Of a stretch of 64,000 nt of DNA, positions 23,516 to 61,949 are shown in pieces. The translations under genes and the position numbers were made by a program. The notes under the pieces were generated by a model. The model saw only the letters and a list, made by a program, of their open reading frames with translations. It was not told the DNA's origin and did no database searches. Source of the stretch: Sphingobacteriaceae bacterium (GTDB lineage: Bacteria > Bacteroidota > Bacteroidia > B-17B0 > Aurantibacillaceae); assembly GCA_947480015.1 (NCBI GenBank), contig CANKBS010000001.1:186001-250000 (forward strand), read 5' to 3'. The number at the start of each line of letters is the position of its first letter. Position 1 is the stretch's first letter.

Positions 23516-24016
23516 ATGTACGCAATTGTAGAAATAGCCGGGCAACAATTTAAAGTGGAACGTGGAAACAAAGTTTACGTTCACCGCCTAGAGGCTAACG
23601 AGGGCGAGAAAATTGAATTTGACAAAGTTTTCTTATTAGACAACGATGGAAAAATTTCAGTTGGAAACCCTACGGTAGATGGCGCTAAAGTAGCAGCCAC
23701 AGTAATTAGTCACGTTAAAGGTGACAAAGTGATTATTTTCAAAAAGAAACGTCGTAAAGGCTATCAAAAATGGAATAACCACCGTCAAAGCTTCACGCAA
23801 ATTTTAATTCAAGGAGTATTAGCCAAAGGCGATAAACTTCAGGAAGAATTAAAAGCAGAACGTATTGTTCGTGTGCAAGGTATGCGAAACAAGCCGGTAG
23901 TAGCCGAAGCAACTGCAGTTGTAGCAGAAGCCCCGGTGAAAAAAGCCCCAGCAAAAAAAGCAGCTCCTAAAAAAGCAGCCGCTAAAAAAACAACAACTAA
24001 GAAAAAAGAAGACTAA
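23516..24016 (+). CDS. rplU: 50S ribosomal protein L21 with basic C-terminal extension
   Basis: A 166-residue protein. Residues 1-103 are a full L21 ([34 protein letters not shown], the rRNA-binding motif). Residues about 104-139 form a linker, and residues 140-166 are an Ala/Lys/Pro-rich tail ([18 protein letters not shown]). Standard L21 is about 103 residues. Such tails occur on several ribosomal proteins in Bacteroidota and may add nonspecific RNA contacts. It is followed 82 bases later by rpmA, the universal partner of rplU. Expressed from the promoter at 23441-23470. Confidence 0.95.
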
Positions 24017-59155: not shown

Positions 59156-59163
59156 TATATTTG
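59156..59163 (+). promoter_or_regulatory. Candidate -7 element for hpt-adk
   Basis: TATATTTG fits TAnnTTTG and lies just before the hpt ATG at 59173. A TTT near 59135 stands in for the TTG box. The element overlaps the upstream in-frame TTG at 59161, which argues against that TTG being the start codon. Confidence 0.45.
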
Positions 59164-59172
59164 TTTTGCTTA

Positions 59173-59709
59173 ATGAATCAGCTTATTGCCATACACGACA
59201 AACAATTTAAGCCCTATTTAAGCGGGCAAAAAATTGCAGAAACGGTGAAAAAAATGGCAGTAAAAATGAATGCGGATCTGGACAAAGTAAATCCACTTTT
59301 TTTGGTGGTTTTAAATGGTTCATTTGTCTTTGCTGCTGATTTGCTTCGCGAGATTAGCTTCGATTGTGAGATTTCGTTTGTGAAACTGAGCAGTTATGCA
59401 GGAACAGAAACCCGCGGCAAGGTGACTGAGTTAATTGGTTTAACCGAAAGCGTCACTGACAGAACCGTTGTGATTGTGGAAGACATTGTAGACAGTGGTA
59501 TTACCATGAGTTGCTTGATAGACGATTTAAAAAACAAAAAGGCCAAAGAAGTGAAACTGGCTACTTTGTTATTTAAACCGGAGAGTTTTAAAAAGAACTT
59601 TAAAATTGATTATGTTGGCTTTGAGGTCCCGAATGATTTTGTGGTGGGGTATGGGATGGATTACAATGGCAGAGGAAGAAATTTAAAAGAAATTCACGTA
59701 TTAGCTTAA
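59173..59709 (+). CDS. hpt: Hypoxanthine phosphoribosyltransferase
   Basis: A 178-residue purine-salvage enzyme that makes IMP and GMP from hypoxanthine and guanine. The PRPP-binding motif VVIVEDIVDSGITM is complete, and LVVLNGSFVFAADLLREI and the C-terminal DYVGFEVPNDFVVGYGMDY block (base-binding) are present. I placed the start at the ATG at 59173 (MNQLIAIHD); TTG at 59161 would add four residues and lies in the promoter candidate. The adk gene follows after 9 bases, an order I recognise from other Bacteroidota. Confidence 0.95.
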   Translation: MNQLIAIHDKQFKPYLSGQKIAETVKKMAVKMNADLDKVNPLFLVVLNGSFVFAADLLREISFDCEISFVKLSSYAGTETRGKVTELIGLTESVTDRTVVIVEDIVDSGITMSCLIDDLKNKKAKEVKLATLLFKPESFKKNFKIDYVGFEVPNDFVVGYGMDYNGRGRNLKEIHVLA

Positions 59710-59718
59710 AAATAAATT

Positions 59719-60873
59719 ATGGAAAAAATGTTGAACATCGTGTTATTTGGTCCTCCCGGTGCGGGAAAGGGAACGCAATCGGAAAACTTAATTAATAAAT
59801 ACGGCTTGGTGCATTTAAGTACCGGCGATATTTTGCGCTCAGAAATTGCGCGAGGTACAGCTTTGGGAAAAAAAGCCAAGGAAATTATGGATCGTGGTGA
59901 GCTGGTGGGTGATGAGATCGTAATTGGTATGATTGAATCCAAATTGGATGAGAACCCGCACGCCAAAGGATTTATATTTGACGGTTTTCCAAGAACGGCC
60001 GCACAGGCTGTGGCTTTGGATGATCTTTTACAAAAAAAGGGAACCGGCATTAGCGGCATGTTAGCCCTTGAAGTGGATGATGAAGAGCTGGTAAAACGTT
60101 TGTTGTTGCGTGGGCAAGACAGTGGCAGAGCCGATGATAAAAATGACGAGGTGATCCGTCGTCGTATTATTGAATACAACACCAAAACCCTTCCTTTAAA
60201 AAATTATTACAGCGAACAAGGCAAGTTTCATAGCATTGAAGGCATTGGCAGCATTGACGCTATTTTTAAACTGTTGGTGGAGCGCATTGTGTTTTTAAAT
60301 GCAGAAATGGATCTGACTTCCTTGGAAAGTGATTTGGAACATTTGGATTTGACCATACAGGATTTTGATGTGGCCAATGATATTGCCCCGGAATTATTGT
60401 TGGAGATTGATGCGATAAAACGTGCGGAAGCCGAGGAAGAGCAAGAGATGCGCGATGAGAAGAAAATGGCAAAGGCACTATTAGCCGCTAAAAATAAACA
60501 GGCTGTAAAAGGTAAAGTGGTTTCAAAACCTGCGCCTAAAAAGCTTGTTAAAAAAGTGGCTGCAAAAAAACCGATAAAATCAAGCCCTAAAAAGACAGTT
60601 AAAAAAGTTGTGAAAAAAGTGGCTGCTAAAAAATTGGCGGTTAAAAAGTCTGCTAAAAAAGTGGCTAAGAAAATCGTTAAGAAGGCTCTGAAAAAAACAA
60701 GTGCTAAAGCTAAGTCTGTAAAAAAAGCACTTGCCAAAAAGCCCATTAAAAAAGTGCTTACCAAAGCAAAAGCCAAGGTGACGAAAAAAGCAAACGTTGT
60801 AAAAAAAGCCGTTAAAAAACCGGCAGTGAAAGCAAAGAGCACAAAGAAAAAAGCGCTTAAAAAACGCAAATAG
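59719..60873 (+). CDS. adk: Adenylate kinase with a histone-H1-like lysine-rich C-terminal tail
   Basis: A 384-residue protein, twice the usual length (about 190). Residues 1-193 are a complete short-LID adenylate kinase: P-loop GPPGAGKGT (11-19), STGDILR, FIFDGFPRT (86-94) and GRADDKNDEVIRRRI (136-150). Residues 194-250 are an acidic linker (EAEEEQEMRDEKKM at its end). Residues 251-384 are a tail of 134 residues with 56 Lys, one Arg and no Asp or Glu, built of KK-A/V-KK units like those of histone H1 and bacterial histone-like proteins. The reading frame is continuous with no sign of a missed stop. The tail likely binds nucleic acid or polyanions; the kinase converts AMP and ATP to ADP. It lies 9 bases after hpt. 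Confidence 0.93.
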   Translation: MEKMLNIVLFGPPGAGKGTQSENLINKYGLVHLSTGDILRSEIARGTALGKKAKEIMDRGELVGDEIVIGMIESKLDENPHAKGFIFDGFPRTAAQAVALDDLLQKKGTGISGMLALEVDDEELVKRLLLRGQDSGRADDKNDEVIRRRIIEYNTKTLPLKNYYSEQGKFHSIEGIGSIDAIFKLLVERIVFLNAEMDLTSLESDLEHLDLTIQDFDVANDIAPELLLEIDAIKRAEAEEEQEMRDEKKMAKALLAAKNKQAVKGKVVSKPAPKKLVKKVAAKKPIKSSPKKTVKKVVKKVAAKKLAVKKSAKKVAKKIVKKALKKTSAKAKSVKKALAKKPIKKVLTKAKAKVTKKANVVKKAVKKPAVKAKSTKKKALKKRK

Positions 60874-60889
60874 AATTATTTATTTAAGG

Positions 60890-60921
60890 AGCCTGACGCC
60901 TCTTGGGTGTTAGGCTTTTTT
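60890..60921 (+). terminator. Terminator between adk and obgE
   Basis: AGCCTGACGCC pairs with GGTGTTAGGCT (two G:T pairs) around a TCTTG loop and ends in T6. It lies 16 bases after the adk stop and 20 bases before the obgE start. Confidence 0.9.
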
Positions 60922-60941: not shown

Positions 60942-61949
60942 ATGGATACTAGTTTTGTTGATTACGTAAAAATATGTTGCCGTACCGGAAAGGGCGGAGC
61001 GGGATCGATACATTTTCACCGTGATAAATTCACGGCTATGGGTGGTCCCGATGGTGGTAATGGCGGGCGCGGCGGTCATATTATTTTAAAAGGCAACAAA
61101 CAATTGTGGACCCTTATTCATTTAAAATACCGTAAACACATTATTGCTAAAGAAGGTGTGAACGGTTCGAGTGGAAACAGTTCGGGAAAACAGGGGGAAG
61201 ATGAGTACCTGGAAGTGCCATTGGGAACCGTGGCCAGAGATTCTGAAACCGGTGAGTTGAATTGTGAAATCACAGAAGATGGTCAGGAAGTTATTTTAGT
61301 ACATGGAGGAAGAGGCGGATTAGGTAACGCTAATTTTAAGAACAGCACGCTGCAGAGTCCACAGTTTGCCCAGCCCGGCGAGCCCGGTAAAACTGAGTGG
61401 AAGGTATTGGAATTAAAAGTACTGGCCGATGTGGGCTTAGTTGGTTTTCCAAATGCCGGTAAATCAACCTTGTTATCGGTGGTAAGTGCCGCCAAACCCG
61501 AGATTGCGAATTACCCCTTCACAACCCTGGTGCCTAATTTAGGCATTGTAAGTTACCGCGATTATAAAAGTTTTGTGATGGCCGACATCCCCGGCATTAT
61601 TGAAGGGGCGCATGAAGGAAAAGGATTGGGTTTACGGTTTTTACGACACATTGAACGAAACTCGAGTTTGTTATTTTTGGTTGCTTGTGATAGTAAAGAC
61701 ATTGTAGAAGAGTATAAAATTCTGTTGAACGAATTAAAAAAATTCAATCCTGAATTATTAGATAAGAAACGCATTTTAGGAATTTCTAAATCCGACATGT
61801 TGGATGAGGAATTAGAAGAAGAAATGCGCAAAGACCTTAACAAACGATTAAAAGGAAAGAACAAAGTTCCCTTTATTTTCTTCTCATCGGCCAGTCAGAA
61901 AAACATTACGCAGCTCAAGGATATGCTTTGGGAGCAGTTAAATGACTAA
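60942..61949 (+). CDS. obgE: GTPase ObgE/CgtA
   Basis: A 335-residue ribosome-associated GTPase. The N-terminal Gly-rich Obg fold (residues 1-158) shows [15 protein letters not shown] and [17 protein letters not shown]. The G domain has G1 as [12 protein letters not shown]2/G3 as [12 protein letters not shown] and [16 protein letters not shown], and G4 as ISKSDM. It lacks the C-terminal OCT domain of longer members, as usual in the phylum. It follows adk after a terminator, so it may need its own promoter or read-through. Confidence 0.96.

Follow-up and report, generated by a model that had tools for sequence, protein, structure and literature searches.

A lysine-rich, histone H1-like tail on the adenylate kinase of an order of Bacteroidia and its possible role as a tether to nucleic acid

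Exploring the window, i.e. the whole stretch of 64,000 nucleotides analyzed here, we found that its adenylate kinase (Adk) ends in a long lysine-rich, histone H1-like tail, and that this tail is an order-wide trait that recurs in other families rather than a one-off. The kinase motifs of the fusion are intact, the fusion is retained across the order and occurs in other families, and acidic replacements in its tail are scarce. Judging from these sequences, we lean towards the view that the tail tethers Adk to nucleic acid in a fuzzy, electrostatic manner, holding it on ribosomes (rRNA) or on the nucleoid.

Results

The adk open reading frame (59719-60873, + strand) is open for 384 amino acids, in keeping with the original prediction that it is unbroken. 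Residues 1-189 (59719..60285, + strand) make up the adenylate kinase domain. Pfam ADK (PF00406) matched residues 9-168 (1.8e-50; 171.4 bits, above the curated cut-off of 26.8), the P-loop GPPGAGKGT and the GFPRT motif are both intact, and the invariant columns of the Adk alignment include G11-G14, G16-T19, G89-T93 and R127, R131, R137 and R149, the last four being presumably the catalytic arginines. The best PDB match of the domain was 3cm0, the Adk of T. thermophilus, and AlphaFold2 (59 rows) modeled the kinase part confidently, with pLDDT of 89-98 in blocks of ten; we take the enzyme to be of the short-LID type. The genome (99.99% complete, 3.77 Mb) contains this adk match only. By its sequence, the 384-residue protein is the housekeeping adenylate kinase of the cell, with a predicted activity of ATP + AMP = 2 ADP.

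Immediately upstream lies an open reading frame (59161..59709, + strand; ORF list, tblastn) that we take to be hpt, encoding hypoxanthine phosphoribosyltransferase, and downstream lies another (60942..61949, + strand; ORF list, tblastn), presumably encoding an ObgE-type GTPase. Counting duplicates, tblastn detected hpt anywhere in the locus at 92 of the 94 tailed adk loci with at least 500 nt upstream compared with 37 of 73 tailless ones, and ObgE at 84 of the 91 tailed loci with at least 500 nt downstream compared with 47 of 70 tailless ones. In four genomes of family f34 (L146-L149), no stop separates hpt from adk; the two lie in one frame and are probably fused. The terminator that had been proposed directly after the adk stop is upheld in part: a hairpin with a T-run at 60886..60921 (+ strand; RNA fold -22.9 kcal/mol, z -3.83) is a probable intrinsic terminator, but it is absent from the list of a consensus terminator scan.

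Between the kinase and the tail runs an acidic linker (residues 190-250; 60286..60468, + strand; net charge -14), in which AlphaFold2 placed a helix at 179-213 and a second one at 224-257. Among the rows of alignment A1 that come from the order the linker is conserved, and the linkers of relatives share the motif LTxLExDxEHLDLTIxDF. The tail (residues 251-384; 60469..60870, + strand) was delimited by its composition, by AlphaFold2 and by the lysine-rich ends of the order's rows. Our recount of its 134 residues, preceded by an intact kinase and an acidic linker, agrees with the original one: 56 Lys, one Arg and neither Asp nor Glu, together with 25 Ala and 19 Val, giving a net charge of +57. 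Against a background of 268 ORFs of at least 200 amino acids found in 464 kb of this genome (7.2% Lys, 10.1% Asp plus Glu), a simple binomial gave 7.5e-29 for the lysine count and 6.5e-7 for the lack of acidic residues. When 1,817 ORFs of at least 60 amino acids, sampled in 20-kb pieces that add up to 1.264 Mb (about one third of the genome), were ranked by lysine minus acidic residues per 50-residue stretch, Adk came first.

AlphaFold2 predicted no structure for the tail from residue 258 onward (pLDDT ~50), and a Pfam search of residues 186-384, i.e. linker and tail, returned zero matches at E 1, the H1-like family Hc1 (PF07432) included. When the C-terminal 110 residues of 72 distinct long Adks are pooled, they contain 42.3% Lys, 16% Ala, 12.6% Val, 6% Pro and 1.6% Asp plus Glu, and H1 tails are given as 38-42% Lys, 17-34% Ala and 12-14% Pro in the accessible part of one report (PMC5974015). 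The tail belongs to the H1-like class, which is disordered and combines ~40% Lys and Ala/Pro with hardly any acidic residues, though its Pro is below that of H1 and its Val is at 12.6%; the likeness to H1 proposed at the outset is thus borne out in composition, in the disorder predicted and in how well changes of sequence are tolerated. A separate H1-like gene starting at Met252 was considered and rejected, because a Met within residues 236-275 is found in only 4 of the 53 tailed rows of the order, window counted.

The original prediction would have been undermined if close relatives lacked the tail; however, it is retained across nearly the whole order. The kinase was matched in 80 of the order's 87 genomes (the search gave no match in the other 7), with an open frame of 308-496 amino acids in 75 of the 80, and all 53 rows longer than 230 amino acids, including the window's, have a lysine-rich end. 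The short-frame exceptions G043 and G044, both of genus g3, encode 199 and 195 amino acids and are tailless in sequence, the G036 locus stops inside the adk gene, G076 has a frame of 168 amino acids whose matching record (L058) is cut by the contig end, and the kinase match of G037 spans 50 residues. In a class-wide sample of 395 genomes, 376 were matched, and the figures that follow rest on 150 places among the matches listed. All 15 rows of the window's order were long frames. Outside the order, lysine-rich tails were read in 15 of the 135 rows listed, from five other families of Bacteroidia (seven from f21, three each from f38 and f6, one each from f11 and f44), the tail of the f44 Adk being rich in Arg as well as Lys. 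No tail was found in the other 120 of these 135 rows, most of which have frames of at most 248 amino acids and few of which were read as sequence. Genus g30 of family f21 carries long and short adk frames side by side. Long frames of two other kinds were rejected as tails: the four loci of f34 have adk in one frame with hpt, and at L154 and L155 of family f9 the extra length is open sequence upstream of the Met start.

When the tail label was mapped on a tree built from the kinase part of 134 rows, a minimum of 9 changes was required, and starred branches force two of these. Before the tree was built, 21 named loci had been dropped as presumed duplicates of genomes already included, along with rows that were truncated or identical; 12 proteobacterial rows were removed afterwards. 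Clade tests on 52 chosen rows, with groups named after the kinase tree had been seen, rejected a single clade of 23 tailed Adks versus 29 tailless ones (p-AU 7.8e-5), while 11 tailed Adks of the order were compatible with one clade (p 0.715). By eye, the linkers look unrelated between families and differ even within the order, which would favor repeated gain of the tail or exchange of linkers; an ancestral gain followed by many losses is a less favored possibility. The tailless, very divergent adk of genus g3 (L159, L160) may be a gene replacement, since the kinases it encodes share 48-49% identity with that of the window and sit on a long branch outside the clade of the order.

To describe sequence change in the tail, we compared codons in 16 non-overlapping close pairs out of 88 found. 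The kinases differed by 199 non-synonymous and 1,035 synonymous changes over 2,960 codons, and the tails by 690 non-synonymous and 436 synonymous changes over 1,875 codons, with 345 gap columns. Lysines replaced in the tails had become Glu in only 3 of 182 cases and never Asp, against a neutral single-step expectation for Lys to Glu of 2/9 at kappa 2; since many of these replacements stem from shifted alignment, the p-value of this comparison is a rough one. Such a pattern suggests that the tail is retained by selection for charge, its sequence being free to change fast.

Other proteins of the genome and the order also have lysine-rich ends. The four highest values of lysine minus acidic residues among the 1,817 ORFs belong to Adk, a CFI-box protein, a 146-residue protein on L265 and the ribosome silencing factor RsfS. 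The CFI-box protein (L209:14350-14814, + strand) is lysine-rich at its N-terminus, and so is the small L265 protein (L265:1526-1966, + strand), for which the profile search gave a sub-threshold match to Rad4 and none over the cut-off. RsfS (L231:72-653, + strand, and L268-L300; blastp) is extended at its N-terminus by 66-201 residues, lysine-rich and H1-like, in all 34 proteins examined in the order, with starts taken at the first Met; these comprise the 30 best-scoring of the 80 matches in the order, the RsfS of the window's genome and three from genus g3. An extended RsfS was not found described in the literature search. Ribosomal protein L21 (window 23516-24016, + strand) has a short Lys/Ala-rich C-tail, and an endonuclease-III-like protein of genome G046 (L187, minus strand; 148.7 bits, below the TIGR01083 cut-off of 211.7) has a long lysine-rich C-tail. 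Used as a protein query, the Adk tail found the adk gene alone in the genome; this negative carries little weight, because in the order the same query (E 0.01) recovers only the Adk tails of three relatives.

Discussion

The sequences make it somewhat probable that the Adk tail is an electrostatic tether. A disordered polycation would hold Adk on nucleic acid, either the rRNA of ribosomes or the nucleoid, and part of the Adk pool would thereby convert AMP and ADP beside machinery that uses ATP or GTP. Nucleic acid would be what the tail binds, with the ribosome as the first-choice target, and the cell would presumably gain from this physiologically. The main new backing for such a placement comes from the lysine-rich ends of RsfS, L21 and the one endonuclease-III-like protein, which would point to nucleic acid, and to ribosomes in particular, as the target of Adk. 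Several findings run counter to it: the CFI-box and L265 proteins, i.e. two of the four most lysine-rich proteins sampled, lack any known connection to nucleic acid, two g3 genomes combine a tailless Adk with an extended RsfS, no tail was found in 120 of the 135 rows listed outside the order, and long and short frames coexist in genus g30. A polycation would, moreover, bind polyphosphate, membranes or acidic proteins too. An unlikely but wider version of the tether is that the lysine-rich H1-like ends, C-terminal in Adk, N-terminal in RsfS and present on L21 and others, form an address label shared within the order, which would gather these proteins on ribosomes or in a nucleoprotein condensate, so that during starvation the adenylate energy charge and the silencing of ribosomes would be handled at a single site.

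Among other roles for the tail, it might anchor the enzyme at polyphosphate granules, so that Adk and polyphosphate kinase would together interconvert polyphosphate, AMP, ADP and ATP there. In the accessible part of one report, Pseudomonas AlgP, which has an H1-like C-terminus of KPAA repeats, associates with polyphosphate granules and requires this C-terminus for their spacing (PMC9239181). PPK1 was matched in 84 of the order's 87 genomes (83 over the cut-off), and the window's genome has both PPK1 and PPK2. The AlgP precedent and the near-universal PPK1 make polyphosphate a serious rival; nevertheless we hold it improbable, as the four g3 genomes, two of which were read with an Adk that lacks the tail, all have PPK1, and so do 7 of the 14 genomes used as controls, the Adks of which we take to be tailless. 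PPK2, for its part, was matched in only 16 of the 87 genomes, and polyphosphate would leave the lysine-rich ends of RsfS and L21 unexplained. That the tail is a functionless, lysine-rich low-complexity expansion, drifting by slippage in A-rich codons, is in our view distinctly unlikely. The fast change of its length and order, seen in the gap columns of the close pairs, would fit such drift, as would third positions less G+C-rich than those of the kinases (26% vs 35%), the 14 runs of six or seven A in the window's adk tail and the lysine-rich ends of several other proteins of the genome; but slippage does not account for an open tail frame retained across the order or for acidic replacements far under the neutral expectation, and the larger share of AAG among lysine codons in the tails (24% vs 17% in the kinases) is contrary to growth of A-runs.

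A further possibility is that the Adk tail substitutes for a missing stand-alone Hc1 and Adk doubles as a nucleoid-compacting protein: the PF07432 profile matched 118 of the 395 genomes of the class and none of the 87 of the order. Strict complementarity of the two was rejected, since tail and Hc1 occur together in two of the three f6 genomes read (G091 and G173) while neither is present in the g3 genomes or in G089, one of the tailless genomes without Hc1, and we regard the substitution as highly improbable. It is also scarcely probable that the tail regulates catalysis rather than placement, with the acidic linker acting as a switch or mask by folding back onto it. The linker does adjoin a tail of opposite charge (-14 next to +57) and is conserved in the order's rows of the alignment, yet the idea that it masks the tail, put forward in the original prediction, does not hold in general: among 41 chosen tailed Adks, 18 have a linker of net charge -9 or below, whereas in 23 it lies between -5 and +4 or the linker is almost missing.

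In the usual view, Adk diffuses freely and sets the energy charge in all parts of the cell simultaneously. A polycation conserved on the sole Adk across an order, and recurring in other families, suggests that for some bacteria it is important where Adk is placed. This question can be put to the test by comparing Adks with and without the tail, and RsfS is a second tailed protein, in this case one known to act on the ribosome.

Compared with known systems, the window's Adk resembles the bacterial adenylate kinases of NCBIfam NF001381 and PDB 3cm0 over the full kinase domain; however, the last position of NF001381 is 188 and 3cm0 has 184 residues, whereas the window's Adk continues for 195 residues beyond residue 189. 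Long Adk is already catalogued in a curated model of 335 positions (NF010381 / PRK13808), the extra part of which is presumably Lys/Ala-rich. Against this model the full-length protein scored 181.7 bits, below the cut-off of 426, and the kinase alone 184.5 bits, so the tail adds nothing to the score; 0 of the 240 genomes in the class of the L097 genome had a PRK13808 match over the cut-off. In the titles and abstract openings among the literature matches listed, a search that left preprints and most subscription journals uncovered, an Adk with such a tail was not found. Both parts, adenylate kinase and H1-like tail, are of known kinds, and it is their combination that was not found described in the literature searched. 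Hc1 (PF07432) is a Bacteroidota family named H1-like, but the window's linker and tail have no Pfam match and the order has no Hc1 in 87 genomes. Mycobacterial MDP1, as described in the accessible part of one paper, likewise joins a folded domain to an H1-like disordered C-terminal region, a likeness in composition and not in sequence (PMC5974015). The folded part of MDP1 is a DNA-binding histone-like domain, whereas Adk has no known DNA-binding fold. We take that domain of MDP1 to be HU. AlgP and PhaF of Pseudomonas have a long Lys/Ala/Pro-rich C-terminus, as does the window's Adk, and according to the accessible part of the same source a fragment of the AlgP C-terminus binds DNA and PhaF is thought to do so (PMC9239181). 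Unlike that of the window's Adk, the H1-like end of AlgP and PhaF is not fused to a metabolic enzyme.
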